Shown one piece after another: positions 12,862 to 31,812 of a DNA stretch of 64,000 nt (positions are counted from its first letter, which is position 1; the number at the start of each line of letters is the position of its first letter). The notes below the pieces were generated by a model, which was given only the letters and a program-made list of their open reading frames with translations, had not been told where the DNA came from and searched no databases. The translations under genes and the position numbers were made by a program. The stretch spans positions 107,990-171,989 of the forward strand of contig CACOMI010000003.1 in assembly GCA_902628275.1 (NCBI GenBank), given 5' to 3'. This DNA comes from an uncultured Pelagibacteraceae bacterium (lineage in GTDB: Bacteria > Pseudomonadota > Alphaproteobacteria > Pelagibacterales > Pelagibacteraceae).

Positions 12862-13848
12862 ATGAGTTTAGATGAAGATAAGATAATGATGGAAACCCTT
12901 TATTGGTGGGGTATTCCAACTTTATTTAGATGTAAAAATGATCCAGAACCAAAGAATTGCGATATAGCATTAGTTGGTGTTCCACATAGCACAGGAAATG
13001 GGACCACAGAAAGAGATCAACATCTAGGTCCAAGGGCAGTTAGAAATATTTCTGCAATGCTAAAACGTTCGCATTTTGATTATAAAATTGATCCTTGGAA
13101 AGAAAATAGAATTCATGATTTAGGAGATGTTCCTTTTCCAGAAGCAAATAACAATGAAAAATGTATTGAAAGGATTTCAGCCTTTTATAATCAAATTGAG
13201 GAAGCAGAAAAACCAGTTGTATCAATAGGAGGAGACCATTCTATAACAGGTGGAATTGTACAAAGCTTAGCAAAGAAAGATTCAAAACTTACAAAAGGTA
13301 AAAAAATAACTTTCGTTCATTTTGATGCTCACACTGATTGTTTTGAAAAATTAGATCATTTTCTTGGAGCAAAAAAATCAGCAGCTCATTGGGCTTCTTA
13401 CTTAGTTAAACAGGGAAACGTTGATCCACATACAAGTACTCAAATAGGTATAAGAGGAAATCCAAGAACATTAGATTGGCTTCAAGCTAGTTATGATATT
13501 GGTTATCAAGTAATAACTATGGACGAATATAGAGATTGGGGCCATGAAAAATGTTCAAAAATGATTTTGGATAGGTTAGGGGACAATCCAATTTATATAA
13601 CTTTTGATTTAGATTGTTTAGATCCATCAGTTGCACCAGGTGTTGCAAACATTGAGCCAGCATATAAAGGATTTAATATGGACGAGGTCAGAAAACTTCT
13701 TCAGTCCTTAAAAGGAAAAAATATTATTGGTGGTGATGTAGTATGTTTAATGCCAACTAAAGATAGTCCAAATCAAATAACAGCTATGGTAGCAGCCTCA
13801 ATAATGTTTGAAATTATTTGTTTGATTTCTATAAACCGTAATAAATAA
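12862..13848 (+). CDS. Ureohydrolase (arginase/agmatinase family)
   Basis: A 328-residue binuclear-manganese ureohydrolase. All metal ligands are visible: His126 (GGDHS), Asp155, His157 and Asp159 (FDAHTD), and Asp249 and Asp251 (FDLDCLDP). The family hydrolyses guanidino compounds such as agmatine, guanidinobutyrate, guanidinopropionate and arginine, or formimidoyl-glutamate, to urea (or formamide) and an amine. The sequence TTERDQHLGPRAVR replaces the usual RPGARFGP loop, so substrate preference may differ from the second ureohydrolase near 50.5 kb. It is a single gene ending one base before a convergent flavoprotein gene. Confidence 0.87.
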   Translation: MSLDEDKIMMETLYWWGIPTLFRCKNDPEPKNCDIALVGVPHSTGNGTTERDQHLGPRAVRNISAMLKRSHFDYKIDPWKENRIHDLGDVPFPEANNNEKCIERISAFYNQIEEAEKPVVSIGGDHSITGGIVQSLAKKDSKLTKGKKITFVHFDAHTDCFEKLDHFLGAKKSAAHWASYLVKQGNVDPHTSTQIGIRGNPRTLDWLQASYDIGYQVITMDEYRDWGHEKCSKMILDRLGDNPIYITFDLDCLDPSVAPGVANIEPAYKGFNMDEVRKLLQSLKGKNIIGGDVVCLMPTKDSPNQITAMVAASIMFEIICLISINRNK

Positions 13849-13849
13849 A

Positions 13850-15430
13850 TTAATTTAAAATAAAGTCCGACGCTCTTTCAGCAATCATTAATGTTGGAGC
13901 ATTTAAGTTTCCACTTGTAATTTCTGGCATTACAGAGGCATCAACAACTCTAAGATTTTCTAAACCATGTACTTTTAGTTTATCATCAACAACAGCTTGT
14001 TCATCAATTCCCATCTTTAAAGTGCAAGATGGATGATAAGCGGTTTCAGCTTTAGATCGAATATACTCCTCAAATACTTCATTAGTGTCAGCATGCTCTC
14101 CAGGTCCAATTTCTTTTCCTGCATATGGTTTTAAAGAATTTTGTCCTAAAATTTTTCTTGCAACATGAATACACTCAATAGTTTGTTTTAAATCATCTTC
14201 ATGTTCTAAATAATTAAATTGAATTTTTGGATAGTCATATGGGTTTGAACTATTTAAGGTTACATGACCTCTACTTTTAGGATGATTTGGACTTGCGTGC
14301 AATTGATATCCATGCCTGTCAGGGTCTACTAATCCATGATCAATCACAAATGCAGGAAAAAAATGAAATTGAATATTAGGATATTCTCGTTCAGGCGATG
14401 ATTTGCAAAATCCACCAGCCTCTAAAAATGAAGTCGAGCATGGTCCTGTTTTTGATAAAAACCACTGAATACCAATCCTTAACATATTTAATTTATTAAT
14501 ATAAGAATACAGAGTGTCAGATGTTTTACACTCTTGTTGAACGTAGGTTTCTAAATGATCCTGCAAATTTTTACCAACACCTTCAAGATGATGAACAACA
14601 TCAATTCCTTTGTCTTTCAAATGTTGACTAGGTCCAACTCCTGATAGCATTAACAACTGAGGTGAATTAATTGCACCACCACTTAGTATAACTTCTTTAT
14701 TTGCATAAATTTTTTCAACTTTATTTTTTATTTTAACTTCAATACCTATTGCTTTTTTTCCATCAAAAATAATTTTTTCAACAAATGAGTCAGTAAAAAT
14801 ATTTAAATTCTTTCTTTTTTTTGCTGGATTTAAATAATATTTTGAAACACTTGCTCTTTCTCCATTGTGAATGGTTACATCATACATACCAAAACCTTCT
14901 TGTTCTTTACCATTCATATCATTATTTATTTTATAACCAGCTTCTCCAGCTGAATCGATAAATGCTTTAAATAGAGGATTTTTATTTTTAGATTGATTAA
15001 CTGGTAATATGCCGTTTCCACCTCTGTATTCATTCTCTCCTTCAGACCAAGTCTCAATTTTTTTAAAAGAAGGCAATACCTTTTCATATGACCAATCTGT
15101 TAATCCAAAAGATGCCCATCTTTGATAATCGTTTGGATTTCCTCTTACATAAACCATTCCATTGTGAGCAGAGCACCCACCGATCATTTTTCCTCTTGGG
15201 CAAAATAATTTTCTATTATTTAAATAAGGCTCTGGCTCTGAATAATATTTGTAATTATATTTGGGATCATGCATTGTATATAAAATTGCAAGTGGCATGT
15301 TTACTTTCCAAATATCACTAGGTTTACCAGCTTCAAATATTGCTACAGTGTTTTTGCCATTTTCAGTTAATCGATTTGCGAGCACACAGCCAGCTGAACC
15401 AGCACCAATTATTAAATAATCAAACTTCAT
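13850..15430 (-). CDS. GMC-family flavin oxidoreductase (choline-dehydrogenase-like)
   Basis: A 526-residue FAD alcohol dehydrogenase. It has the Rossmann motif GAGSAG at 9-14, the GMC signature PRGKMIGGCSAHNGMVYVRG near residues 78-97, and catalytic His466 (YHPSCTLKMG) and Asn510 (GNLNAPT). BetA-type enzymes oxidise choline to betaine aldehyde and glycine betaine; others take different alcohols. It overlaps the HD-oxygenase gene by four bases and is last in an operon of quaternary-amine candidate genes, which favours choline or a related alcohol. No betaine aldehyde dehydrogenase gene is adjacent. Confidence 0.87.
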   Translation of the reverse strand: MKFDYLIIGAGSAGCVLANRLTENGKNTVAIFEAGKPSDIWKVNMPLAILYTMHDPKYNYKYYSEPEPYLNNRKLFCPRGKMIGGCSAHNGMVYVRGNPNDYQRWASFGLTDWSYEKVLPSFKKIETWSEGENEYRGGNGILPVNQSKNKNPLFKAFIDSAGEAGYKINNDMNGKEQEGFGMYDVTIHNGERASVSKYYLNPAKKRKNLNIFTDSFVEKIIFDGKKAIGIEVKIKNKVEKIYANKEVILSGGAINSPQLLMLSGVGPSQHLKDKGIDVVHHLEGVGKNLQDHLETYVQQECKTSDTLYSYINKLNMLRIGIQWFLSKTGPCSTSFLEAGGFCKSSPEREYPNIQFHFFPAFVIDHGLVDPDRHGYQLHASPNHPKSRGHVTLNSSNPYDYPKIQFNYLEHEDDLKQTIECIHVARKILGQNSLKPYAGKEIGPGEHADTNEVFEEYIRSKAETAYHPSCTLKMGIDEQAVVDDKLKVHGLENLRVVDASVMPEITSGNLNAPTLMIAERASDFILN

Positions 15431-15963
15431 ATAAGACTTGATGTTAGTAATTTTTTATATTGATGAATAGACTTCATTTTGATGCCTGTCCTTTTTGCCG
15501 CTTCATCAAATTTTCTAACAAGAATTGATGATTTGAAATATTTTTTTTTCTCGAACTGTCTGCATTCGTCATCCTTTAAAATTCCACCTTGTAAATTAAG
15601 GCTTACTCTTGAAGCCTCAGAAAGTTTATTATAATAATTTTTATTTCTAGCTAAATAACGCTTAGCAAGAACATGATATTTAATTGGTTCAACAACCTCT
15701 TCTTTAAAGAAACTTTTTAAATATTCATAACCTATACTCTCATGCTCACCATCTAAATTTGACTCAACTAACTCATCTGGGTTTTCAATAATAAAATGTC
15801 CATAATCATGCAATAGACATGAGCAAATAACTTCTTTTTTACATTTAGCTTTTTCAGCGAGCATCGCAGCTTGTATCATGTGTTGAGACATGGTTACGTT
15901 TTCGCCAATATAGAGTGATTGGTTGTTTGTAAAATTTGATATTATTTTTTCAATTACTTGCAT
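15427..15963 (-). CDS. HD-domain mixed-valent diiron oxygenase, PhnZ/TmpB-like
   Basis: A 178-residue HD-domain protein whose residue spacing follows the C-P-cleaving oxygenase PhnZ. Tyr18 and Glu21 (YIGE) match the PhnZ Tyr24/Glu27 lid pair. His28, His52-Asp53, His74, His97 and Asp153 match its iron ligands (34, 58/59, 80, 104, 161). Lys101, Ser121, Gln125 and Arg150 sit where PhnZ contacts the phosphonate. PhnZ numbering is from memory and needs an alignment. Such enzymes split alpha-hydroxyphosphonates into a carboxylate and phosphate; TmpB makes glycine betaine from hydroxylated 2-trimethylaminoethylphosphonate. Myo-inositol oxygenase is a more distant relative and is longer. The next gene upstream in the operon is a 2-oxoglutarate dioxygenase, the usual partner type. 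Confidence 0.78.
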   Translation of the reverse strand: MQVIEKIISNFTNNQSLYIGENVTMSQHMIQAAMLAEKAKCKKEVICSCLLHDYGHFIIENPDELVESNLDGEHESIGYEYLKSFFKEEVVEPIKYHVLAKRYLARNKNYYNKLSEASRVSLNLQGGILKDDECRQFEKKKYFKSSILVRKFDEAAKRTGIKMKSIHQYKKLLTSSLI

Positions 15964-15968
15964 GATGA

Positions 15969-16802
15969 CTATTGAGGTCGGTCTCCCTCAATTGCAATTC
16001 TATCCATAATTCTCTCATATCCCAAACCTCTTCCTGGAAAAAAGTCAGCTATTGCATAATGAATAACACTTCTATTATCCCAGATTGCTACAGTATTTTC
16101 TGTCCAGCTAAACCTACATGTTAAATCCAATCTTGCTTGATGCTCAAATATTTCTTTTAATATTTGATCACTTTCTTCTTTATCTAATCCAATAATTTGT
16201 TTGGTATAAGTCCAATTAACAAATAAAATTTTTTTACCTGTTTCTGGATGTGTTCTAACAATTGGATGTTCATTTGAATAAGAGTCATAATTTCTTTTTT
16301 CATTTCCTTCCATATACTTATAGTTATCTATAAAAAATTCTGCACCAAGTGAGCTATGAATTGCTTTTCTATCTTTTATTTTCTCTTTAATTTTATCATC
16401 TAGTGTTTCCCAAGCTAACTCCATATTGGAAAAACAAGTATCACCACCAACAGGAGGGATTTTTAAAGATTTTAATATTACTGCTTTTGTTGGTTTTGCA
16501 TTATAACTAACGTCACTATGCCAATTCTCACCCCATTGGTTTTTTTCTTCTTTACCTTTTATTATTCTGACAATTTCAGGATAATCATTTAATCCTTTTA
16601 CATAAGCATGAGTTTCTAAAGGTCCAAACTTTTCAGCAAGTGCAATTTGTTGTTTTTTAGTAATAGGCTGATCTCTAAAAAAAATAACTTTATGTTCTAA
16701 AAGAAGATCATTTATTTTCTTAAAATTTAAATCTGAAACATCGGTTAAATCTATACCTTTAATTTCAGCTCCTAATGCACCAGAAAGTAACTTAATTTCC
16801 AT
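15969..16802 (-). CDS. TauD/TfdA-family 2-oxoglutarate dioxygenase
   Basis: A 277-residue alpha-ketoglutarate-dependent dioxygenase. His95 and Asp97 (WHSDVSY) and His248 (VIHYA) bind iron; Arg264 (YERIMDR) is placed to bind 2-oxoglutarate. Length and motifs fit taurine dioxygenase. The next gene downstream, after five bases, is a PhnZ-like HD oxygenase. In known phosphonate systems a 2-oxoglutarate dioxygenase (PhnY, TmpA) hydroxylates the alpha carbon before the HD enzyme cleaves the C-P bond. PhnY and TmpA belong to other branches of the superfamily, so pairing here is inferred from context. Taurine or another sulfonate is an alternative substrate. Confidence 0.85.
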   Translation of the reverse strand: MEIKLLSGALGAEIKGIDLTDVSDLNFKKINDLLLEHKVIFFRDQPITKKQQIALAEKFGPLETHAYVKGLNDYPEIVRIIKGKEEKNQWGENWHSDVSYNAKPTKAVILKSLKIPPVGGDTCFSNMELAWETLDDKIKEKIKDRKAIHSSLGAEFFIDNYKYMEGNEKRNYDSYSNEHPIVRTHPETGKKILFVNWTYTKQIIGLDKEESDQILKEIFEHQARLDLTCRFSWTENTVAIWDNRSVIHYAIADFFPGRGLGYERIMDRIAIEGDRPQ

Positions 16803-17269
16803 TATTTTTTCAATTTTCCAGTTATCACAAGATCATTATCCCTAAAATTTGATTTGTTTAATTTAATAAAATCATCCATTAACTTAATTTTGTCTTGTTC
16901 AAATTCTGCCACTTTTCTCTTATTTAAGTCAATATACAAAGATAACATTTCTAAAGTTGCTGATAATTTTTTTGTAGTTGTTTCAAGCATTTCCATTTTG
17001 AAGTGTAATCTTTTTTTGTCATGATCAAAAAAGGTAAGATTAATTTCAACCTCTTCACCCTCCTTTACCTCATTATTATAAGTTGTGTGTGTTTCAACAA
17101 CCATGGTACTCATTTTGTTAGTTTTTGCTGAGTCCTCACCCATCTTAAATTTTTGTAACATTATTTCCCAAATTTGATCAAAAATAAGAACATAGTAAGC
17201 CATGTTCATATGATTATTATAGTCTGTCCACTCTTTTTTGATAATTTGATTTGCTATATGTATAGACAT
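16802..17269 (-). CDS. cdhB: Hotdog-fold thioesterase, candidate betainyl-CoA thioesterase (CdhB-like)
   Basis: A 155-residue 4HBT-type hotdog protein with the motif DYNNHMN at residues 16-22, matching the usual D-x-N-x-H-x-N active site of YbgC/4HBT thioesterases. In carnitine catabolism CdhB hydrolyses betainyl-CoA to glycine betaine and CoA. In some bacteria the same domain is fused to carnitine dehydrogenase. Candidates for the other two enzymes of that route (CdhC-like and CdhA-like) are encoded on the opposite strand within 7.5 kb, which is the main reason for the specific call. Its start directly follows the aldolase stop, and its own stop overlaps the TauD start by one base. Confidence 0.7.
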   Translation of the reverse strand: MSIHIANQIIKKEWTDYNNHMNMAYYVLIFDQIWEIMLQKFKMGEDSAKTNKMSTMVVETHTTYNNEVKEGEEVEINLTFFDHDKKRLHFKMEMLETTTKKLSATLEMLSLYIDLNKRKVAEFEQDKIKLMDDFIKLNKSNFRDNDLVITGKLKK

Positions 17270-17998
17270 TTAATTTTTATAATCTGGTTCTTCTTTATCT
17301 AAAATTAATTTTATTTGATCAAGATGTAATTTTGCTAAATCAATTGGATAGTTTGCAGTTTCTTGAGCTGTTTTTTCAGCAACATCTTCGCTGACTATAT
17401 TTAATTCTTGATTTGAGGCTAAAGCAGTTAAATAAGTTTCTGCTGCTTTTTCGAAATAATATAAATAATTAAAACCTTCTGCAACTGTCTGTCCTGTTGT
17501 AATAATTCCATGGTTAGCAAGTAACATATGTTGTTTGTTTCCTAAAGCACTAGCCATCTTCATAGCCTCATCCTCAAATCCTAATCCTCCAAATTCATTA
17601 TAAACTGAGACTCTATTATAAAATATCATAGTATTTTGATCTATAGGTTTCATTATTGGATCTTTTAATGTTGATAATGCTGTTGCATACTTTGAATGAC
17701 AATGAAAAATACATTTTGCATGTGGAATTTTTTGATGTATTGCACCATGAATACTAATTGCTGTAGGATCAATTAAATTAGGCTTATTCTTTAGTTCATT
17801 AATATTTTCTTTAGTCACTAAAATTAAATCACTAGCTTTAATTTGACTAAAATGTATGCCAGCTTTATTGACGTAAAAATCTGTTGAGGAGCCTGGAATG
17901 CAGGCACTAAAATGGTTTGCAACACCCTCGTGCATATTTAATCTTGCAGTCCATCTAAAAGTAGCAGCTAAATCTTTTTGTAATTCGGTTATTTCCAT
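17270..17998 (-). CDS. Class II aldolase/adducin-family protein
   Basis: A 242-residue class II aldolase fold with zinc ligands His99 and His101 (FHCHSKYA) and His163 (ANHGI). The acid residue of fuculose aldolase (Glu in a P-S-x-E motif) has no counterpart: the aligned position near 80 is Ala in DPTAISIHGAIH. This is also the pattern of the poorly characterised adducin-like subgroup, so the enzyme may be a decarboxylase, isomerase or epimerase rather than an aldolase. It is first in the minus-strand operon with the CdhB-like, TauD, HD-oxygenase and GMC genes. No ribosome site is visible before the ATG. Confidence 0.82.
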   Translation of the reverse strand: MEITELQKDLAATFRWTARLNMHEGVANHFSACIPGSSTDFYVNKAGIHFSQIKASDLILVTKENINELKNKPNLIDPTAISIHGAIHQKIPHAKCIFHCHSKYATALSTLKDPIMKPIDQNTMIFYNRVSVYNEFGGLGFEDEAMKMASALGNKQHMLLANHGIITTGQTVAEGFNYLYYFEKAAETYLTALASNQELNIVSEDVAEKTAQETANYPIDLAKLHLDQIKLILDKEEPDYKN

Positions 17999-18004
17999 TT
18001 TTGT

Positions 18005-18027
18005 TAAATTAAACTATATTTAATTTA
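18005..18027. promoter_or_regulatory. Inverted repeat in a 35-base divergent promoter gap
   Basis: TAAATTAAA (18005-18013) and TTTAATTTA (18019-18027) form a perfect nine-base inverted repeat around five bases. It fills most of the 35-base gap between divergent starts at 17998 and 18034, so a bound regulator could control both operons. Neither start has a Shine-Dalgarno sequence. AT-rich composition makes chance repeats more likely. Confidence 0.4.
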
Positions 18028-18033
18028 CAATTT

Positions 18034-18921
18034 ATGAGCAATAAAGTTTTTATATCGTGTGCAGTAACCGGATCAGGTGACACTGCTAGCAAGCATCCCG
18101 ATTTACCAAAAACACCAGAACAAATTGCCAAAGCCTCAATAGAGGCTGCAAAAGCTGGAGCTGCAATCGCTCATATTCATGTTAGAGAGGATGATGGAAC
18201 TCCAAGTAGAAGATTAGAATTATATAAAGAGGTTATTGATAGAATCAGATCAAGCGAGACAGATGTAATTTTGAACTTAACAACTGGCATGGGGGGAGAC
18301 CTTGATATTGGACAAGGAAAAAATCCTTTAGAATTTGGTCCGATGACTGATATGGCAAATGTAATGGAAAGAATTGCAAATGCAGAACAATTTCTTCCCG
18401 AGATTTGTACATTAGATGCTGGTACATTAAATTTTGGTGATAGCTCAGTTATTACAGTTAATACTCCAAATGATTTAAGAAAAGCTGCAAAAAAGTTGCA
18501 AGAAATTAAAGTGAAACCAGAAATAGAAGCGTTTGATTTGGGTAATATGTGGTTTGGTTCGCAGATTTATAAAGAGGGACTACTAAGTGATCCACCTCTT
18601 TTTCAAATGTGTTTAGGAATTCCATGGGGAGCCCCTGCAACAATATCAGCTATGCAAGCAATGAAAGATATTATGCCCAAGGAAGGTGTATGGTCAGGAT
18701 TTGCAATTTCAAGAAATGAAATGCCATTTGTTGCGCAAACTGTTCTTATGGGAGGAAATCCAAGAGTTGGATTAGAAGATAATCTGTATCTATCAAAAGG
18801 TAAGTTGGCAACTAATGCTCAATTAGTTGAAAAAGCTATAAGAATAATAGATGAACTTGGATATTCACCAATGACACCAGCTGAGACAAGAGAAAAACTA
18901 AAATTAGTAAAACATTATTAA
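18034..18921 (+). CDS. cdhC: BKACE-family beta-keto acid cleavage enzyme, candidate CdhC
   Basis: A 295-residue member of the BKACE (DUF849) family. Zinc ligands His47 and His49 lie in AHIHVREDDG, and the family signature NPRVGLEDN lies near residues 244-252. BKACE enzymes condense a beta-keto acid with acetyl-CoA and release acetoacetate plus a new acyl-CoA. CdhC does this with 3-dehydrocarnitine, giving betainyl-CoA. Substrate choice within the family is varied, so the specific call depends on the CdhB-like thioesterase gene across the divergent promoter and the CdhA-like gene downstream. The stop overlaps the start of a small ABM-domain gene by one base. Confidence 0.8.
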   Translation: MSNKVFISCAVTGSGDTASKHPDLPKTPEQIAKASIEAAKAGAAIAHIHVREDDGTPSRRLELYKEVIDRIRSSETDVILNLTTGMGGDLDIGQGKNPLEFGPMTDMANVMERIANAEQFLPEICTLDAGTLNFGDSSVITVNTPNDLRKAAKKLQEIKVKPEIEAFDLGNMWFGSQIYKEGLLSDPPLFQMCLGIPWGAPATISAMQAMKDIMPKEGVWSGFAISRNEMPFVAQTVLMGGNPRVGLEDNLYLSKGKLATNAQLVEKAIRIIDELGYSPMTPAETREKLKLVKHY

Positions 18922-19229
18922 TGTCAAAGATAACTGTTATAGCAAGTTTTTATCCCAAGGAAGATAAGGTTAATGATGTTCGAGAAATTTTATTATCTAT
19001 GACAAAACCAACGAGATCAGAAGAGGGTAATGAGCTTTATAATTTTTATGGGGAAAAAAATTCAGAAAAAAAAATTGAATCTTTTCATTTATTTGAAATT
19101 TATAAAGATACTGAAGCGCTAGATTTTCATAGAAATACAGAGCATTATAAAGATTATAGATCTAAAATTAATGATCTTTTAAACAAACCTATAGAGGTAA
19201 AAGTTCTTAGCCCAATCGATATTATATAA
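18921..19229 (+). CDS. Small ABM-domain (dimeric alpha/beta barrel) protein
   Basis: A 102-residue protein whose pattern (ITVIASFYPKEDKVNDVREI, then FHLFEIYKDTEALDFHRNTEHYKDY) is typical of antibiotic-biosynthesis-monooxygenase-like dimeric ferredoxin-fold proteins. In that family some members are cofactor-free oxygenases and others isomerases. Catalytic residues are not conserved enough to tell which applies here. It starts one base inside the stop of the BKACE gene and so should be co-translated with it. Confidence 0.75.
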   Translation: MSKITVIASFYPKEDKVNDVREILLSMTKPTRSEEGNELYNFYGEKNSEKKIESFHLFEIYKDTEALDFHRNTEHYKDYRSKINDLLNKPIEVKVLSPIDII

Positions 19230-19382
19230 TTACTTTTCAGGTTTTTAATTTCAAAATTTTCTCTGATTATTCACATTTTTACACATTTGCTCGTGGCCTA
19301 TTTCATTAACAAAATATTTTATTGTAAATCCTCATATTCTAAAATAGGGTTTTCAATATAATTAATAACTTTCTACTAGCTT

Positions 19383-20519
19383 ATGTCTAAAGGAAAAAAT
19401 TTAGTAAAAATCAAAAAATCGAAAAATGCTAACACCATATTTGGTTTACCAGCTAAATCTTATATTGATGAAAATTTTTGGAAAAAAGAATGTGAAACAG
19501 TTTTATCTAATGACTGGTTGTTTGTGGGTTTTGCCCACGAACTAAAAAATTCTGGAGATGTAATTCCACTATTTATAGCAAATAAACCGATACTTTTATT
19601 AAAAAACAATAATAATGAAATAAAAGCCTTCCATAATGTTTGTAGTCATAGATGCCTAAAGCTTATCGATGAAAAAAAAAATGTAGGCAAAATCATAAGT
19701 TGTCCTTATCACGCTTGGAGTTATGATCTTGATGGAAACTTAAAGGCAGCGCCTCATGTTGGTGGTACAAATCAACATAAACCACAAGGATTTAATTATA
19801 TTGATCACGGTTTAAAACAAATAAAGATTCACATTTGGCACGATTGGATTTTTATTAATTTTAATGGCAAAGCAAAAAAATTTGAGCAATATGCAAAACC
19901 ACTTATTTCAAAGTTTAATGATATCGATTTTACTAAATTAAGATATGCAGCAACATTAGATTTTGGAAACATAAATACTAATTGGAAATTTTTAATTGAA
20001 AATTTTATTGAACCTTATCACGTACAATTCGTTCATAAAACTACTACTAACCAACCACTTAAAGACCATTACACAGTTGTAGATGGTGTTTGTTATGGTA
20101 GTGGGGTAGATGTAGCTGAAGAAGATACCAAAAATAGTACAGCCTTATCTGTAACATCCAGATATTTATCGCTATTCCCAAATTTTATTATTGGCTCTTA
20201 CTATCCAAATCAAATTGGTGTTTATCTTAATGTGCCTATTAGCCCAGGTTTGACATCTCAAAAAAGGATAATTTACACTACAGACGGTAAAGATATGAGC
20301 GAGGAAGAAATTAAAATGGTTAAAAATATATGGTGGAGTGTTCATAAAGAAGATCACGAAATGTGCGAAAGACTTCAAGAGGGCAGACATTCTCCAGCAT
20401 CTCATGAAGGTGGTCTATTGTCTCCAGTTTGGGAAAAAGGCGTTCAAGCATTTCAAAAACTAATAGTTGATGCTACAATGAAATCTTCTAAATCAATAAA
20501 AAGGAAAAAAAATGTCTAA
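19383..20519 (+). CDS. Rieske non-heme iron oxygenase, quaternary-amine (CntA/GbcA-like) group
   Basis: A 378-residue oxygenase alpha subunit. The Rieske cluster is Cys87-His89 and Cys107-His110. The mononuclear iron site is His213, His218 and probably Asp324. The residue before the first His is Glu210 (EPYHVQFVH) rather than the usual bridging Asp. That Glu/His/His spacing equals Glu205/His208/His213 reported for carnitine monooxygenase CntA; related choline and betaine oxygenases also vary here. Plausible substrates are carnitine, glycine betaine or another methylated amine. No ferredoxin reductase partner lies nearby. A 153-base gap precedes the gene. It overlaps the glyoxalase gene by eight bases. 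Confidence 0.82.
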   Translation: MSKGKNLVKIKKSKNANTIFGLPAKSYIDENFWKKECETVLSNDWLFVGFAHELKNSGDVIPLFIANKPILLLKNNNNEIKAFHNVCSHRCLKLIDEKKNVGKIISCPYHAWSYDLDGNLKAAPHVGGTNQHKPQGFNYIDHGLKQIKIHIWHDWIFINFNGKAKKFEQYAKPLISKFNDIDFTKLRYAATLDFGNINTNWKFLIENFIEPYHVQFVHKTTTNQPLKDHYTVVDGVCYGSGVDVAEEDTKNSTALSVTSRYLSLFPNFIIGSYYPNQIGVYLNVPISPGLTSQKRIIYTTDGKDMSEEEIKMVKNIWWSVHKEDHEMCERLQEGRHSPASHEGGLLSPVWEKGVQAFQKLIVDATMKSSKSIKRKKNV

Positions 20520-20931
20520 AGAGATTAATCTAGAGGGATATCGATTAGCCCATACAATGATAAGAGTTAAAGATCTGGAAGCATCTTTTAATTTTTACTG
20601 CAAAACTTTGGGTATGAAAGTTTTGAGAAAAACAGATTATCCAGAGGGAAAATTTACAAATGCTTTTATTGGATATGGTTTAGAAACAGAGTCCCCCTGT
20701 CTAGAACTTACTCATAATTGGGATCAAAAAGAAGATTATGACAAAGGAAACGGATGGGGCCATGTTTGTATAGAAACTCCAGATGTTTATAAAGCTTGTG
20801 AAGATCTTGAAAAACTTGGTGTTAATATAACTCGTAAACCAGGTCCAATGAAACATGGAACAAGAGTAATAGCATTTTGTGAAGATCCTGATGGCTACAA
20901 AGTCGAATTAAATGAACCACTAAAAATATAA
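20512..20931 (+). CDS. Glyoxalase I-like (VOC family) protein
   Basis: A 139-residue vicinal-oxygen-chelate protein. All four metal ligands of glyoxalase I are in place: His14, Glu65, His84 and Glu132. GMKVLRKTDYPEGKF and NWDQKEDYDKGNGWGH match lactoylglutathione lyase. It would convert a glutathione hemithioacetal of methylglyoxal to S-lactoylglutathione. The operon context, with a Rieske oxygenase and a GFA-family protein, suggests either aldehyde detoxification or a pathway-specific variant. Its start lies inside the end of the Rieske gene. Confidence 0.84.
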   Translation: MSKEINLEGYRLAHTMIRVKDLEASFNFYCKTLGMKVLRKTDYPEGKFTNAFIGYGLETESPCLELTHNWDQKEDYDKGNGWGHVCIETPDVYKACEDLEKLGVNITRKPGPMKHGTRVIAFCEDPDGYKVELNEPLKI

Positions 20932-20947
20932 ATTGAAAGGAATTAGA

Positions 20948-21343
20948 ATGTCAAATAAGCCTCAGCTGTATAAATTTAAAGACATAGAGCATAGACTTCA
21001 TACTCTAGAACCAGGCAAAAGTTATATTAAACCATTTGTCACTAGCAAAGTAAGTAACACAATGTGTGGAGGGTTAAATTTTTTGAACAAAGTATCAGTG
21101 CCATGGGATTTGACTTGTGATGAAATTATTTACTGTATGGAAGGAACTTTTAGATTGACCTGTGATGGGCAATCATATGTCTGCAACCCTGGGGATGTAC
21201 TTTATATTCCTAAAGATAATCACATAGCATATGAGTGTGATGAAAAATGTGTAATATTTTATGCGGCATATCCTCATGACTGGAAACAAAAAGCTGGCAT
21301 AACTTTTGTACCTGGAATTGATCCTGAGGATATGCCAAAATAG
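20948..21343 (+). CDS. Cupin-domain protein, EutQ-like
   Basis: A 131-residue single-domain cupin with a jelly-roll pattern (WDLTCDEIIYCMEGTFRLTCDG, then CNPGDVLYIPKDNHIAYEC). It resembles EutQ-type and ectoine-synthase-like small cupins. The usual metal His pair of cupin motif 1 is not obvious. A TTG five codons upstream is possible, but ATG at 20948-20950 has GAAAGGA well spaced before it and is preferred. It lies between the glyoxalase and glutamine-synthetase-like genes. Function unknown. Confidence 0.72.
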   Translation: MSNKPQLYKFKDIEHRLHTLEPGKSYIKPFVTSKVSNTMCGGLNFLNKVSVPWDLTCDEIIYCMEGTFRLTCDGQSYVCNPGDVLYIPKDNHIAYECDEKCVIFYAAYPHDWKQKAGITFVPGIDPEDMPK

Positions 21344-21362
21344 TAAAAAGGAGGAAATCAAC

Positions 21363-22784
21363 TTGAATAAAAACGAAAAAATCTATTACGAAAATTTCAA
21401 AGATGCAGTTGATCGTAATAGAAAAAAAATACCTGCAGTTCATAAAAAATTAAAAAATGCTGGTGTAAAATACGTTTTATCAAGTTGGATTGATCTCCAT
21501 GGTATCCCAAAATCAAAACCTGTTCCTATGTCCGATTTTGAACAATTATGTTTAGGGAAAGGTCCTCAATTTGCTGTTCATTCTATTTCTTTTGTTCCAG
21601 AATTAACACCAGCAGACTCTGATCAGGTAATGTTACCAGACTTAGATTCTGTTTATATTTGTCCATGGGATACATCTACAGCAATTATTTTTGCAGACCT
21701 TTTTTGGGAAGATAAACCTTATAATGTTTGCCCAAGACAGGCTTTAAAACGCAACATGCAAAAAGCCCAAGATGCTGGATACAAAGGTATGGCTGGTGTG
21801 GAGCCAGAATTTATCGCAATGAAATATGATGAAAATGGTCAACCTATAAAAGCTATTGATACCGATCCTATAAAAGGAATTAGACCGAGACGTCAGGCTT
21901 TTGGTTATGATGTTGAGCATTCACTAGACTCAATGCATTTTCTAAAGGAGTTAATAGATATTCTCAACGGATTAGGTTGGAAACTGCACGATGTAGTTGC
22001 TGAAGGTGCATATTCTCAATTTGAATTAGATTTCCATTATACGAATCTTTTAGAAATGGCTGACAGATTAGTTTTTCTTCGTATTCTTCTTAAAGAAGTC
22101 GCAAAAAAACATGATATGTTTATTACATTTATGCCAAAACCAACGATAGGTGATTGGAGATCAGGAGCTCACATAAATTTTTCAATGGTTGATAAAAATG
22201 AAAAAAATATTTTTGATGGTGGAAATAAATGGTCTAAAGAGTCTTTATTTGCCGTTGGTGGACTTATGAAACATGCAGAAGCGTTAACTTCAATTACATG
22301 TTCAACTGTAAATTCATATAATGGATTAGTACCAAGAGTAGGTGGATTTGAAGGGGGTACAGTCACTTGGGCGCCCACAAATATTACATATGGACACAAT
22401 AACAGATCAGCTCAATTTAGATTACCACAAAATAGATATTGTATTGAAAATAGAGCTGCTGATATGACAATGAATGTATATTTGGCTTTTTCAATGACAC
22501 TTTCAGCTGCAGTAGAAGGTATAAAAAATAAAATTCACCCAGGTAAACCAACAGATCAAGATCTTTACGATATGACTGATAGTGAATTTAAAAAACTTGG
22601 TATTAAAAGACTTCCAAGAAATTTACTAATGGCTATAGAAGCGCTAAAAAAAGACAACTTATCTGAAGAAGTAATAGGATCAGTAATGAAAAAATCTTTG
22701 CTTGCTTATAAAAACGATGAGTGGGAAAGATACCATCAAGCAGTTACTGATTGGGAAGTAAAAGAATACCTCAGACTTTATTAA
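21363..22784 (+). CDS. Glutamine-synthetase-family ligase (GlnT/GmaS-like)
   Basis: A 473-residue glutamine-synthetase-fold enzyme: N-terminal beta-grasp region (VLSSWIDLHGIPKSKPVP), then the catalytic barrel with GVEPEFIAM, EGAYSQFELDFHY, GAHINFS and NRSAQFRLP. The divergent motifs point to the gamma-glutamylmethylamide synthetase or other GS-like ligases rather than housekeeping GlnA. These enzymes ligate glutamate to ammonia or an amine using ATP. A longer frame opens at 21306 inside the cupin gene, but TTG at 21363-21365 has AAGGAGG eight bases upstream, so this rare start codon is chosen. Methylamine as substrate would fit an N-demethylation pathway but is an inference. Confidence 0.8.
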   Translation: MNKNEKIYYENFKDAVDRNRKKIPAVHKKLKNAGVKYVLSSWIDLHGIPKSKPVPMSDFEQLCLGKGPQFAVHSISFVPELTPADSDQVMLPDLDSVYICPWDTSTAIIFADLFWEDKPYNVCPRQALKRNMQKAQDAGYKGMAGVEPEFIAMKYDENGQPIKAIDTDPIKGIRPRRQAFGYDVEHSLDSMHFLKELIDILNGLGWKLHDVVAEGAYSQFELDFHYTNLLEMADRLVFLRILLKEVAKKHDMFITFMPKPTIGDWRSGAHINFSMVDKNEKNIFDGGNKWSKESLFAVGGLMKHAEALTSITCSTVNSYNGLVPRVGGFEGGTVTWAPTNITYGHNNRSAQFRLPQNRYCIENRAADMTMNVYLAFSMTLSAAVEGIKNKIHPGKPTDQDLYDMTDSEFKKLGIKRLPRNLLMAIEALKKDNLSEEVIGSVMKKSLLAYKNDEWERYHQAVTDWEVKEYLRLY

Positions 22785-22787
22785 TTC

Positions 22788-23799: not shown

Positions 23800-24744
23800 A
23801 TGACTAAAATTCACAAAGTAGCAGTAATAGGCACTGGTGTAATTGGAACAGGTTGGATTATTAGATGTTTGGCTCATAATAAAATAGTTTATGCTTACGA
23901 CAAAGATCTTAAATTAAAAAAAAATTTAATTTCAGAAATTAAAAGAACTTGGCCATATGTAAAAAAACTTTTTAATAAAAAATCACTTAATCTTAAAAAT
24001 TTTAAATTTTTTACTACAATAGAAGAAACCTTGAGAAATGCTGATTTTGTTCAAGAATGTGCAAGTGAAAATTATGCTTTAAAAACTAAGTTGATGAGCT
24101 TAATTGGAAAATACTCTAAATCAAATGCAATTATTTCATCAAGCTCATCAGGTCTGTTACCATCAAGAATTTATTCTAAATGTAAAAATCCTGAAAGAGC
24201 AATGATTGGACATCCTTTTAATCCTGTTTATTTATTGCCTGCTGTTGAAATTGTGCCAGGCAAAAAAACAAAAAATAAATTTTTAGAAGAAGGTAAAAAA
24301 TTTTATAAATCGATTTCTATGAATCCAATTATGGTAAAAAATGAGTTACCTGGATATTTATCTGATAGGTTACAAGAAGCTTTATGGAGAGAGGGGCTGC
24401 ATATTATTAACGAAGGATATGCAACTACTGAGGAATTAGATAGAGCGATTGAGGATGGTCCAGGGTTAAGGTGGTCCTTAATGGGTACATTTTTAACTTT
24501 TCATCTCGCAGGTGGAAAAACTGGGATGAAACATATGCTTGAACAATTTGGACCTGCTTTAAAATTACCTTGGACAAAATTAAAAGCTCCAAAATTATCA
24601 AAAAAACTATCATCTAGACTAATTTCAGGGACAGCAAAACAAGCCAAAGGTAAATCGGTTGCAATGATATCAAATATTAGAGATCAATATTTAGTTGACC
24701 TTCAAAAATTAAGAAAAAAATACGAAAATAAAATTAGAAGATGA
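23800..24744 (+). CDS. cdhA: L-carnitine dehydrogenase candidate (CdhA-like)
   Basis: A 314-residue NAD-dependent enzyme of the 3-hydroxyacyl-CoA dehydrogenase superfamily. It has GTGVIG at residues 11-16, Asp35 after the second strand favouring NAD, and His138 with Glu150 (GHPFNPVYLLPAVE) as the catalytic pair. The HPFNPVYLLP.VE sequence and length near 315-320 are characteristic of bacterial carnitine 3-dehydrogenase, which makes 3-dehydrocarnitine. Other 3-hydroxyacid dehydrogenases such as lambda-crystallin-type enzymes are close relatives. Presence of CdhC-like and CdhB-like genes nearby supports carnitine. The stop overlaps the GFA gene start as ATGA. Confidence 0.8.
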   Translation: MTKIHKVAVIGTGVIGTGWIIRCLAHNKIVYAYDKDLKLKKNLISEIKRTWPYVKKLFNKKSLNLKNFKFFTTIEETLRNADFVQECASENYALKTKLMSLIGKYSKSNAIISSSSSGLLPSRIYSKCKNPERAMIGHPFNPVYLLPAVEIVPGKKTKNKFLEEGKKFYKSISMNPIMVKNELPGYLSDRLQEALWREGLHIINEGYATTEELDRAIEDGPGLRWSLMGTFLTFHLAGGKTGMKHMLEQFGPALKLPWTKLKAPKLSKKLSSRLISGTAKQAKGKSVAMISNIRDQYLVDLQKLRKKYENKIRR

Positions 24745-25930: not shown

Positions 25931-26956
25931 TTATGATTTTGTTAATGATGTCTGTAATTCTTTATTAGATATATAACCTTTTACATTTCCACTCTTGTCA
26001 ACTACTTCACAATTAGAATTAGAGCATACAATTAGTGGTAAAAATTCCTCAATAAATTGATCTTCATTTACTTTAATTAAATTTGTTTTATCAATGTCAT
26101 CTGAGTCGTTAGTACCTTTCATAATAATTTTAGCCTTAATTACTTTTGCTCTATTAACATCTTTTACAAATGCTTTAACATAATCATCTGCAGGGTTCAT
26201 AATGATATCAACTGGAGTTCCAACCTGAACAAGTTTTCCAGCATTCAATATTCCAATATGATCCCCAAGTCTTAAAGACTCATCTAAGTCATGAGTAATA
26301 AATACGATTGTTTTTTTTAATTCTGATTGAAGATCAAGTAATTGTTTTTGCATATCACTTCTTATTAATGGATCTAAAGCACTAAAAGCTTCATCCATTA
26401 ACATAATGTCACTATCAGTTGCTAAAGCTCTAGCAAGACCAACACGTTGTTGCATACCACCTGATAATTGATTTGGAAATTGATTTTCAAAACCATTTAA
26501 ACCAACTGCTTCAATTTTTTCCATGGCAGTTTTATTTATTTCTTCCAATGCTTTTCCTTGCATTTCTAAACCATATCCAACGTTTTGGATTACAGTTTTG
26601 TGGGGAAATAAACCAAACCTTTGAAAAACCATACTCATCTTATGTCTCCTAAACTCAATTAATTGTTCTTTGTTAAAAGACATAACATTTGTTCCCTCTA
26701 CTATAATTTCACCATCAGTAGGGTCGATTAGTCTATTTAAATGACGAATTAGAGTTGATTTCCCAGATCCAGATAAGCCCATACAAACAAAGGTCTCACC
26801 TTCCTCTATTTTTAATGAAACATTGTCAAGACCAACTGTGTGACCTGTTTGTTCTAATACCTCCTCTTTATTTGCCCCTTCTTTTACCATTGGCATAACT
26901 GATTGAGGATTATTACCAAAAATTTTGTAAACATTATTAATCTCAATTTTAGACAT
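25931..26956 (-). CDS. proV: Glycine betaine/proline-type ABC importer ATPase (ProV/OpuAA-like)
   Basis: A 341-residue ABC ATPase. GLSGSGKST (residues 60-68) is the Walker A loop, QLSGGMQQRVGLARA the signature, and DIMLMDEAFSALDP the Walker B. The N-terminal extension with EVLEQTGHTVGLDNVS before the Walker A and the C-terminal CBS-like stretch (about 275-341) are hallmarks of ProV/OpuAA, where the CBS region can sense ionic strength. It energises import of glycine betaine or related betaines. One base overlaps with the permease gene. Confidence 0.88.
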   Translation of the reverse strand: MSKIEINNVYKIFGNNPQSVMPMVKEGANKEEVLEQTGHTVGLDNVSLKIEEGETFVCMGLSGSGKSTLIRHLNRLIDPTDGEIIVEGTNVMSFNKEQLIEFRRHKMSMVFQRFGLFPHKTVIQNVGYGLEMQGKALEEINKTAMEKIEAVGLNGFENQFPNQLSGGMQQRVGLARALATDSDIMLMDEAFSALDPLIRSDMQKQLLDLQSELKKTIVFITHDLDESLRLGDHIGILNAGKLVQVGTPVDIIMNPADDYVKAFVKDVNRAKVIKAKIIMKGTNDSDDIDKTNLIKVNEDQFIEEFLPLIVCSNSNCEVVDKSGNVKGYISNKELQTSLTKS

Positions 26957-27999
26957 TATTTACCTTTCTTTGTATTTGGTGCTGTTCTTTCTTGGAGGGT
27001 TTCTCCATAAGATTGGGTTATTCTATCTAGCACTATTGCTAAAAGTACAATTGCAATCCCCGCTTCAGCAGCTCTTCCCACATTTAATTGTTGAAGACCA
27101 AGTAACACTTCATCTCCCAAGCCTCTAGTACCTATCATTGATGCAATAACAACCATAGCTAATGCCATCATTGTACATTGATTAATACCCTGCATTATAT
27201 TTGGTAAAGCTAATGGCATTTGTACACCCCAAAGTTTTTGCTTTTTACTTGCACCAAATGCATCTGCAGCCTCAATAACCTCAGTATCTACTAATCTTAT
27301 TCCTAAATCTGTTAGCCTTACCAATGGTGGAACTGCATAAATAAATGTAGCTATAATTGCAGGTACTGCACCTAAGCCAAATAGCATAATTCCTGGAATC
27401 AAGTAACAGAAACTCGGAATTGTTTGCATTAAATCTAAAACTGGCAAAATGACATTTCTAGTTCTTGCACTTCTTGCCATTGCGATACCTAATGGAATAC
27501 CCGCAACTACACAAAGAAATATTCCAATTAACATTATTGCAGTTGTTTCTATTGCTTTTTGCCAAAATATTGGATGAAGAAAACCGATAAAAAAAGTGCA
27601 AAATCCAACAAATACTGTTGTTCCAACTTTTCTACCACTTGCAAAATAAGTGAGAACTATGACACCAAGTATAACCAATGGCCATGGAGCTTGTATTAAA
27701 AAGTTTTTTACAAGCATTAACATATATAGAAGAACATTATTAATAGCTTCAAATATATATCCATATTTTTCGTTAAGTGTTTTAAAACCAGAATTGATCC
27801 AATTCATTAGAGGTAAGTCTAGCCACTTAGGCCATTTACCTCCTAACCAAGAAAAATCATTTAATAATTCTCCAATATTGTCAGGTTTTCTTTTTGATTG
27901 AGAATAGCTAGTTATTAATAGCCAAATAAAAACAACGAGTAAACCAATATTAAAAAATATTTTTTTATTTTTCTTTAATGTTTCCATAAATAACTTCAA
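26956..27999 (-). CDS. proW: Glycine betaine/proline-type ABC importer permease (ProW-like)
   Basis: A 347-residue permease with a long N-terminal extension (about 100 residues with two hydrophobic spans) before the core, as in ProW. The coupling-helix region includes TEVIEAADAFGASKKQKLWGVQMPLALPNIMQGINQ. It forms the inner-membrane channel for the ProV-like ATPase and ProX-like binding protein. It follows the binding-protein gene after a 51-base gap that contains a hairpin, and overlaps the ATPase gene by one base. Confidence 0.88.
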   Translation of the reverse strand: MKLFMETLKKNKKIFFNIGLLVVFIWLLITSYSQSKRKPDNIGELLNDFSWLGGKWPKWLDLPLMNWINSGFKTLNEKYGYIFEAINNVLLYMLMLVKNFLIQAPWPLVILGVIVLTYFASGRKVGTTVFVGFCTFFIGFLHPIFWQKAIETTAIMLIGIFLCVVAGIPLGIAMARSARTRNVILPVLDLMQTIPSFCYLIPGIMLFGLGAVPAIIATFIYAVPPLVRLTDLGIRLVDTEVIEAADAFGASKKQKLWGVQMPLALPNIMQGINQCTMMALAMVVIASMIGTRGLGDEVLLGLQQLNVGRAAEAGIAIVLLAIVLDRITQSYGETLQERTAPNTKKGK

Positions 28000-28007
28000 T
28001 TAAAGAA

Positions 28008-28027
28008 AGAGCCCCAAAGGGGGCTCT
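28008..28027 (-). terminator. Intercistronic hairpin between proX-like and proW-like genes
   Basis: AGAGCCCC (28008-28015) pairs with GGGGCTCT (28020-28027) around a four-base loop. Read on the minus strand it is followed by TTTCTTTAATT. It probably terminates part of the transcripts after the binding-protein gene, giving more binding protein than permease, and may also protect the upstream mRNA. Confidence 0.75.
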
Positions 28028-28050
28028 ATCAATATATTTTTTATAAGTGA

Positions 28051-29067
28051 TTATAATGCTGCTGCAACCTTTTTAGCAACATCAGCTGGTACCCAGTCTT
28101 TCCACATAGTTTCTGTTTTCAAGAATTCTATTGCAGTAGCTTCCATATCACCACCTGACTCATCTTCATAGAATGCTAACATTTTGTTAACCGTAGCTGT
28201 TGGAATAGTATATTTTCCAATAAACTCGTTTTCTTTTGGATGAGCTTTTGCCCAAGTAGCAAGAACAGATTTAGTTAAAGCCATATCTCTGTACTCACTT
28301 GCGCAAGAAGGTTTATAAGCATCTGGACCATTTGCTTTAATGTCCTCTACAACCGCAGACATTGCATCCCAACATGCTTGATCAAATTTAGGCTCCTTTA
28401 ATCTTACAAGATCAACCTTACCCATTAAACCAGTTGGTGCCCAGTAGTAAGTAAAGATTGGTTTTTTCTTAGCAAATGCACCTGCTATTGCAGCATCTAA
28501 TGCACCACCTGAACCTGGATCAAAGTTTGTATAGTATTTATCTAAACCATACTCTTTTTGTTTAACTAAATTTACAGTGTAGCATGTCCAACCAGATATA
28601 CAGCTAGTCATTCTTCCTTTTGATGGATCTTCCGGATCTTTAAATAGCGCAGCTATTTTTGGATCTTTCATATCTTCAACAGATTTTAAATTATATTTAT
28701 CAGCTGTAGCTTTATCAACATAGAATGCTTGCTGCGAGTCTGGTGTGTTTGTTCCCATATGGATAATTGTACCTGCTTCCTCATGAGGCTTATAATTACC
28801 TATAATGTTATCATACCAAACTTCAGTAATAACATCTAACTGTCCATCGTAATGAGCAGCCATAATTGGAGTTGTACTACCTTTAGTTACTGAAACTTCA
28901 CAACCATATCCTTTTTCAAGAATGAAAGTGGTAATAGCAGTGTGAATATTAGCACTACTCCAGTCGAAATCTCCCAATCTTGCCTTACAATCACCTGCGT
29001 TTGCACTAGACACAATCAAAGATGATAAAAAGAAAATTGAGATAGTTAATTTTTTTAAAAACTTCAT
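28051..29067 (-). CDS. proX: Glycine betaine/choline-type periplasmic binding protein (ProX-like)
   Basis: A 338-residue secreted binding protein with a signal peptide (MKFLKKLTISIFFLSS, likely cleavage after ANA near residue 24). The mature part starts with CKARLGDFDWSSANIHTAIT, typical of ProX/OpuAC/ChoX type II-F proteins. Trp residues in the mature chain (DWSSAN, EVWYDNI, SGWTCYT, YYWAP) could build the aromatic cage for a trimethylammonium group. It is first in the importer operon, after a CTTAAGGAGATAATT ribosome site, and is divergent from the butyrobetaine-hydroxylase-like gene. Confidence 0.87.
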   Translation of the reverse strand: MKFLKKLTISIFFLSSLIVSSANAGDCKARLGDFDWSSANIHTAITTFILEKGYGCEVSVTKGSTTPIMAAHYDGQLDVITEVWYDNIIGNYKPHEEAGTIIHMGTNTPDSQQAFYVDKATADKYNLKSVEDMKDPKIAALFKDPEDPSKGRMTSCISGWTCYTVNLVKQKEYGLDKYYTNFDPGSGGALDAAIAGAFAKKKPIFTYYWAPTGLMGKVDLVRLKEPKFDQACWDAMSAVVEDIKANGPDAYKPSCASEYRDMALTKSVLATWAKAHPKENEFIGKYTIPTATVNKMLAFYEDESGGDMEATAIEFLKTETMWKDWVPADVAKKVAAAL

Positions 29068-29198: not shown

Positions 29199-30326
29199 GT
29201 GAGCTCAATTTCTAAACTTGAAAAAAATTCTACATATATAAAAGTTATTTGGAATGATGGAGAGGAAAGTAAGTTTAATTATCTATGGTTGAGAGATAAT
29301 TGCCCTACAGCTCACGATAAAGACTCAAGACATAGAATGTTTAATATTTTAAATGTTTCACTAAGCATTAATCCAAAAAAATATTCAATAAGCACTGATG
29401 GAAAGTTAGAAATTGAATGGAGTGAAGGAAATCATATAAGTTATTATGATCCTAAATGGTTAAGAGAAAACTGCTATACATTAAAAAATAAGCGAAAGTA
29501 TGTCTCACCTTATAAACTTTGGGACAGTTCACTAGAAAAAGATTTAAAATCCATTCAGATTGATCATGATGAAATTGTAAATTCTGATGAAGGTTTGGTT
29601 AAATGGCTTGAACTTTTGCATCACACAGGCATAGCTATCGTTAAAAATGCTCCAGTAGAAAAAAACTCTGCATTAAAGGTTTTAAATAGGATAAGCCATA
29701 CTAGAGAAACTTTTTTTAAAACACCTTTTGAAGTAATTAATATTCCAAAGCCCAATAATTCTGCTTACACAGCACACGCTTTAAGAAATCACATGGATTT
29801 GCCATGGTTTGAAAATCCACCTGGTTATCAATTTTTACACTGCTTAATTAATTCAGCAAAGGGAGGTGACTCATCAGCAGTTGATGCATTTGCTGTTGCA
29901 GATTATTTAAGACATAATGAAAAGGAAACTTTTGATATATTGGTTAATACTCCGTTAAAATTTAGAGACAAAGACTATACTCAAGAAGCAGTTAGAACTG
30001 TTTATGGAACAGCGATATCATTAACTAAAGATGGAGATTATAATGATATTCGTTATAGTATTGCAACACTAGATGCTCTTGATTGTCATCCAGATATAAT
30101 GGATTCTGTTTATAAAGCTCATCATCGGTTTGGAAATTTATTACATGACACTAAATTTCAAATTAATTTCAGATTAGAGCCAGGTGATATTTTTTCATTT
30201 AACAATAGAAGATTGCTTCATGGAAGAACTGAGTTTGATCCTAATTCAGGTCAAAGACATCTCCAGGGCTATTACATGGATAGAGATGAAATAATAGGAA
30301 GATTAAATTATCTTAAAAGTTGTTAA
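29199..30326 (+). CDS. Gamma-butyrobetaine-hydroxylase/TmpA-like 2-oxoglutarate dioxygenase
   Basis: A 375-residue protein with the two-part layout of gamma-butyrobetaine hydroxylase: an N-terminal DUF971-like domain (WLRDNC at 30-35) and a TauD-type catalytic domain. Iron ligands are His198, Asp200 (NHMDLPW) and His341; Arg353 should bind 2-oxoglutarate. Asn187 and Tyr190 (NNSAYTA) match Asn191 and Tyr194 that help hold the trimethylammonium in the human enzyme. The N-terminal zinc site looks lost: Cys35 remains, but two further Cys positions are Thr37 and Asp40. Products could be carnitine, or hydroxylated trimethylaminoethylphosphonate if TmpA-like. Start is GTG. The divergent neighbour is a betaine importer. 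Confidence 0.8.
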   Translation: MSSISKLEKNSTYIKVIWNDGEESKFNYLWLRDNCPTAHDKDSRHRMFNILNVSLSINPKKYSISTDGKLEIEWSEGNHISYYDPKWLRENCYTLKNKRKYVSPYKLWDSSLEKDLKSIQIDHDEIVNSDEGLVKWLELLHHTGIAIVKNAPVEKNSALKVLNRISHTRETFFKTPFEVINIPKPNNSAYTAHALRNHMDLPWFENPPGYQFLHCLINSAKGGDSSAVDAFAVADYLRHNEKETFDILVNTPLKFRDKDYTQEAVRTVYGTAISLTKDGDYNDIRYSIATLDALDCHPDIMDSVYKAHHRFGNLLHDTKFQINFRLEPGDIFSFNNRRLLHGRTEFDPNSGQRHLQGYYMDRDEIIGRLNYLKSC

Positions 30327-31754: not shown

Positions 31755-31764
31755 TTAGTAATTT

Positions 31765-31800
31765 AAATAAGGAGGGTGTTGATTTACCCTCCTTATTTTT
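31765..31800 (+). terminator. Intercistronic terminator between ugpB and ugpA
   Basis: AAATAAGGAGGGT (31765-31777) pairs with ACCCTCCTTATTT (31786-31798) around an eight-base loop and runs into a long T tract. Readthrough must occur to express the permeases, so it most likely sets the ratio of binding protein to membrane parts. Confidence 0.88.
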
Positions 31801-31812
31801 TATTTTACTTAT

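Follow-up and report, generated by a model that had tools for sequence, protein, structure and literature searches.

A predicted TmpB-like HD-domain oxygenase in a betaine and carnitine gene island of a SAR11 bacterium

PhnZ and TmpB are HD-domain oxygenases with the shared motif H...HD...H...H...D, and roles have been described for a pair of lid residues in each, Y24/E27 in PhnZ and Y30/E33 in TmpB (PMC8177086, excerpts). In one survey the Pelagibacterales contributed 45% of marine phnZ sequences, with phnZ read as use of 2-aminoethylphosphonate (2AEP), the dominant catabolic strategy (PMC9381506, excerpts); phnZ is also described as splitting into subclades, of which the original one alone is specific for 2AEP (PMC8316502, excerpts). 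Here we describe a gene for a 178-residue HD protein (HD) from SAR11, a group said to outnumber every other kind of heterotroph in the surface ocean (PMC12636525, excerpts). It lies in a 64,000-nucleotide stretch of contig CACOMI010000003.1 (the window), part of a 1.14-Mb, 84% complete genome whose closest named records are uncultured Pelagibacteraceae; HD is 99% identical in AH-324-A02.

The PhnZ/TmpB family is already known; what we find is a SAR11 branch of its own, standing beside betaine genes and, in the window genome, without a detected TmpA. We predict that HD breaks (R)-1-hydroxy-2-trimethylaminoethylphosphonate down to phosphate and glycine betaine, in an island whose genes probably funnel related compounds into betaine; to this reading we give a probability of roughly 0.55. 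Cleavage of the C-P bond would depend on O2 and a predicted mixed-valent di-iron cofactor, and the organism may, as a preliminary description of the window proposed, obtain phosphate as well as glycine betaine from a single phosphonate. The open PMC literature gave no match for SAR11 with TmpB; the sole match for PhnZ with taurine dioxygenase concerns, in the excerpt available, caprazamycin, and the excerpts of PMC12636525 under betaine and phosphonate terms contain no passage on this HD gene.

The HD protein and its place in the PhnZ/TmpB family

HD is encoded in an almost gapless five-gene run on the minus strand, in the order AldII-TE-TauD-HD-GMC:

15427..15963, minus strand: HD-domain oxygenase of the PhnZ/TmpB family, 178 aa, predicted TmpB-like (profile scores, residues, fold)
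15969..16802, minus strand: TauD-family Fe(II)/2-oxoglutarate (2OG) dioxygenase, 277 aa, candidate hydroxylase (TauD; family scan)
13850..15430, minus strand: GMC oxidoreductase, choline-dehydrogenase-like, overlapping HD by 4 bases (GMC; profile scores)
16802..17269, minus strand: 4HBT thioesterase, candidate betainyl-CoA thioesterase (TE; family scan)
17270..17998, minus strand: class II aldolase/adducin family protein, first gene of the run (AldII; family scan)

The HD and TauD reading frames lie where the preliminary description had placed them. Because the gaps measure only 0 (AldII-TE), -1 (TE-TauD), 5 (TauD-HD) and -4 bases (HD-GMC), co-transcription of the run is plausible; promoter and terminator scans of 13500-18400 gave signals at shuffle level. 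GMC scores 740.9 bits against the subfamily model NF002550 (cut-off 605) and 680.8 bits against the equivalog TIGR01810, below its cut-off of 732.1.

Membership of HD in the PhnZ/TmpB family, also claimed earlier, is borne out by the scores against TmpB (1.1e-32) and PhnZ (1.2e-27), by its residues and by its fold. Y18, E21, H28, H52, D53 and H74 align with PhnZ Y24, E27, H34, H58, D59 and H80, and H97, K101, S121, Q125, R150 and D153 with PhnZ H104, K108, T129, Q133, R158 and D161; PhnZ Ser126 aligns with S118, not S121. All 12 residues listed in the preliminary description are thus present, including a complete H...HD...H...H...D ligand set, a YxxE lid (Y18, E21), and the phosphonate-binding lysine and arginine, whose loss had been named beforehand as a refutation. 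The residues other than the lid pair act in this family as iron ligands or phosphonate contacts. All 12 occur in 30 of 32 rows of the SAR11 branch, the other two having one X and one truncated start, so the set, judged from the alignment, is not due to chance. The 12 are common to PhnZ and TmpB and therefore mark the family, not the substrate.

With TmpB (PDB 6npa) HD shares 43% identity, the metal ligands, the YxxE lid, the Lys/Ser/Gln/Arg contacts and the fold; it differs in falling under the TmpB model cut-off, in forming a separate branch, and in lying beside TauD and GMC in a genome where no TmpA was found. With PhnZ (PDB 4mlm, 4n6w) it shares the fold and the 12 residues, save that PhnZ has Thr for Ser at 121, but identity is 33% and no PhyH (PhnY-type) neighbour was found. 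As matches to the predicted fold, TmpB and PhnZ are tied.

At an E value of 1e-3, 2,577 clustered proteins from all branches match HD, and each of the matches listed, at least 120, shows 73% identity or more. Trees were built from a 72-row alignment, the first with 70 rows and the second with 56, 16 rows being left out of the latter as long, cut, deviant or near-duplicate. The SAR11 HD proteins form a branch of their own at 100/100 in both, and both recover a TmpB clade, comprising 12 rows, at 100/99. Eleven of these 12 adjoin a TmpA-like gene at the loci read, the twelfth being TmpB itself; L122, another row with a TmpA neighbour, falls outside the clade in the first tree and is absent from the second. 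Forcing the SAR11 branch and TmpB together costs 1.9 log units in the second tree, so that their union is neither shown nor rejected (p-AU 0.40).

Distribution in SAR11 and linkage to TmpA

Across a sample of 197 SAR11-family genomes, TIGR03276 has a match at 1e-3 in 77, strong in 26 of them (2.1e-47 or better) and only weak in 51 (1.5e-11 or worse); the weak matches read, in L004 and L052, are of HD2 type. Among the strong matches, 23 genomes belong to the window HD branch, assigned by tree except for two rows outside the trees, which were placed by 55-57% identity to the window HD; the other three (G035, G140, G166) belong to a PhnZ-like branch. HD adjoins GMC at 18 of the 23 loci, which marks GMC-HD as a conserved unit. 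Loci L046-L048, from three SAR11 genomes, carry a different, PhnZ-like HD gene; in L048 (3431-10952) its surroundings include two PhnE permeases and a phosphonoacetaldehyde hydrolase, all above their cut-offs, as well as a PhnD-like protein that narrowly misses its own.

TmpA exceeds its cut-off in six of the 197 genomes, all of the sister genus g3, and all six carry the window HD branch (hypergeometric p 1.3e-6, without correction for kinship). In two (L049, L054) HD and TmpA are divergent neighbours. In two more (G073, G122) they share a contig, 16-19 kb apart, on stretches of about 19 and 21 kb that open with TauD, HD and GMC and close with TmpA; between them lie agmatinase-family, thioesterase, beta-keto acid cleavage enzyme (BKACE), carnitine-dehydrogenase-like, ProVWX, butyrobetaine-hydroxylase-like and phosphatase-like genes, and in G073 also an aldehyde-dehydrogenase-like gene (for G122 the first 20 kb were read, and TmpA was placed by profile match). 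In the last two (G116, G092) HD and TmpA are on different contigs. No sampled genome of the window's own genus reaches the TmpA cut-off. Since all six TmpA genomes carry this HD type, two in adjacency and two on the same contig, TmpB-like activity is favored for HD, and the TmpB-type reaction predicted in the preliminary description is likely in the light of the scores, the residues, the fold and this TmpA-linked branch.

Several results weigh against this prediction. HD scores 155.3 bits against the TmpB equivalog NF049941 (cut-off 300) and 171.6 bits against the family model TIGR03276 (cut-off 214.6). The latter cut-off, reached in none of the 197 genomes, excludes TmpB-type proteins too, because most of the TmpA-adjacent non-SAR11 rows read also miss it. 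Among the specificity positions that split TmpB-type from PhnZ-type rows, P93 and L149 are PhnZ-like and M25 is TmpB-like. In the trees SAR11 forms its own branch of the family, and that branch is joined with support to neither the TmpB clade nor PhnZ. Genus g3 holds 14 of the 23 HD genomes as well as all six with TmpA, and five of those six are 55-76% complete, so that a second HD could be missed. In the 84% complete window genome the best TmpA score is 345 bits (cut-off 400), and no phosphonate-binding protein exceeds its Pfam cut-off. As to the supply of substrate, HD and TauD also occur apart, at loci described below.

A PhnZ-like role for HD, acting on another hydroxyphosphonate of the 2AEP or methylphosphonate series, would suit the contact residues, common with PhnZ save at 121, as well as the tied fold match, the separate branch and the PhnZ-like specificity positions. 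We regard it as rather unlikely. HD is nearer TmpB than PhnZ by score and by identity (43% versus 33%), and TmpA is the only partner of a characterized type found linked to the HD branch. No PhyH (PhnY-type) match was found within 4 kb of HD in the 23 genomes, as far as contigs reach, the nearest lying about 4.5 kb off in G020; and a separate PhnZ-like HD sits with PhnD/PhnE/PhnX-type genes in L048, the only such genome covered by the phosphonate-family scan.

Candidate sources of the hydroxylated substrate

The enzyme that makes the substrate may be TauD, on grounds of position, either of two butyrobetaine-hydroxylase-like enzymes, on grounds of their kinship to TmpA, or an enzyme encoded in the unrecovered portion of the genome. 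In the predicted TmpB-like route, TauD would supply the hydroxylated compound in the window's genus, none of whose sampled genomes has a TmpA over the cut-off, a weaker part of the proposal; HD would split hydroxylated trimethylaminoethylphosphonate, yielding phosphate along with glycine betaine, which is probably what the island as a whole produces.

In E. coli TauD, taurine is bound by His70 and Arg270, and its amine is held by Asp94, Asn95 and Ser158 (PMC9304159, excerpts). The window TauD (228 bits, cut-off 313) retains the ligands of iron and 2OG together with the equivalents of His70 and Arg270, but Asp94, Asn95 and Ser158 are replaced by W90, G91 and A154, and Tyr73 is replaced as well. 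Because this amine network is not kept, taurine itself appears an unlikely substrate. An aromatic cage in the pocket was considered as evidence for a quaternary ammonium substrate and rejected: striking against E. coli TauD, it is the norm among 29 relatives outside SAR11 (Arg270 in 29 of 29, an aromatic residue at 94 in 26, Gly at 95 in 26). A pattern so common outside E. coli TauD therefore argues against taurine more than towards any particular substrate. In the surroundings of five non-SAR11 TauD relatives we found no HD gene of the PhnZ/TmpB family; one relative lies near BKACE and Rieske genes.

TauD and HD might form a dedicated new pair, in which TauD hydroxylates 2-trimethylaminoethylphosphonate instead of TmpA and HD cleaves the product; we hold this to be possible but doubtful. 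The genes are 5 bases apart in the window and neighbors at 13 of the 18 GMC-HD loci (TauD being cut by the contig end in G020 and in two pieces in G073), and of the other five loci, G104 has TauD 3.4 kb away, G069 and G123 lack it, and in G116 and G092 the contig ends before it; the pocket that makes taurine unlikely also fits such a pair. Conversely, TauD adjoins GMC with no HD between at nine loci (10 with one cut GMC), and its pocket residues are alike with and without HD, save at the Phe159 position and for A or G at 158, with no sign of a quaternary ammonium in the control of 29 relatives. TauD has no match in seven of the 23 genomes with HD, including G069, G123 and G042 (99, 97 and 93% complete), and in G069 and G123 neither TauD nor TmpA was found, leaving HD without an evident hydroxylase. 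GMC orthologs (73% or more) occur in 37 of the 197 genomes, with HD in 21 and TauD in 24: 15 have both, six HD only, nine TauD only and seven neither (Fisher p 0.49), some of these genomes being incomplete or cut at contig ends, and G057 having HD and TauD at separate loci. A GMC tree covering 31 of the 37 genomes shows five changes for HD and four for TauD; a tree-aware test of their association had only four pairs and no power. An obligate pairing is rejected on these counts. From the GMC genomes and the GMC tree we conclude that HD and TauD are separable add-ons to the GMC locus.

In G073 (L194:844-1670) TauD is in two pieces with a TAA within the match, either a broken gene or an assembly error; the HD, GMC and TmpA frames of that island are of normal length.

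Alternatively, the TauD-family enzyme may have replaced TmpA and hydroxylate both a trimethylammonium sulfonate and its phosphonate twin, HD being an add-on that opens the phosphonate. The sulfonate product would fall apart unaided and the phosphonate product would not, which would explain why TauD stands both with and without HD; we place this on the unlikely side. If it is true, much SAR11 phnZ counted as 2AEP use is betaine-phosphonate use, and if HD acts on a betaine phosphonate at all, freeing phosphate and glycine betaine, survey counts of phnZ would need re-reading.

The remaining candidates are two TmpA relatives, both encoded in the window genome. The first (29199-30326), described earlier as a TmpA/butyrobetaine-hydroxylase-like enzyme 13 kb away, is not TmpA by curated score or contacts: it reaches 266.7 bits against the TmpA model NF049936 (cut-off 400) and 317 bits against the gamma-butyrobetaine model (cut-off 415). 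TmpA contacts the phosphonate through Asn187, Asn287 and Arg288 (PMC9296572, excerpts); Asn187 and Arg288 are kept in 14 of 14 TmpA-type rows and Asn287 in 11 of 14. The window enzyme keeps Asn187 only, and it and seven aligned orthologs lack equivalents of Asn287 and Arg288; of the BBOX residues, the second Asn is missing from it too. It is best read as a candidate for the butyrobetaine-hydroxylase-like step of a carnitine route. The second, on contig C8, scores 345 bits for TmpA and 276 for butyrobetaine hydroxylase. That either makes the HD substrate seems to us quite improbable. The C8 enzyme is far nearer TmpA than BBOX in its PDB matches (2.7e-54 versus 3.3e-37) and keeps the Arg288 equivalent, and 29199-30326 matches the two about equally (TmpA 1.8e-50, human BBOX 1e-49). 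Both, however, fall below 400 bits and lack two of the three contacts (in C8 the equivalents of Asn187 and Asn287), and beyond the genus the C8 type has another HD gene as its neighbor in 18 of the 19 genomes sampled.

The surrounding gene island

The betaine and carnitine setting claimed for HD is supported by the neighboring genes, which extend the five-gene run into an island:

18034..18921, plus strand: BKACE, divergent from the run (family scan)
23800..24744, plus strand: L-carnitine-dehydrogenase-like (347 bits, cut-off 414)
25931..29067, minus strand: ProV, ProW and ProX, betaine-type ABC transporter (V and W named from sequence and gene order)
29199..30326, plus strand: gamma-butyrobetaine-hydroxylase-like 2OG enzyme, not TmpA (scores, contacts)

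ProX, the only ProVWX member scanned, reaches 86.7 bits, below its cut-off of 215. The island likely converts carnitine, choline and related compounds to glycine betaine.

Between the BKACE and carnitine-dehydrogenase-like genes, 18921-23798 holds ABM, Rieske, glyoxalase, cupin, glutamine-synthetase-like and alpha/beta-hydrolase genes. This stretch is a variable insert: it is also present in L005, L006 and L009-L011, and no match to it was seen in L007, L008 and L066. Beyond the butyrobetaine-hydroxylase-like gene, 30447-35413 carries a ugpB-A-E-E-C-like cluster for glycerol-3-phosphate uptake, in which UgpC alone exceeds its cut-off.
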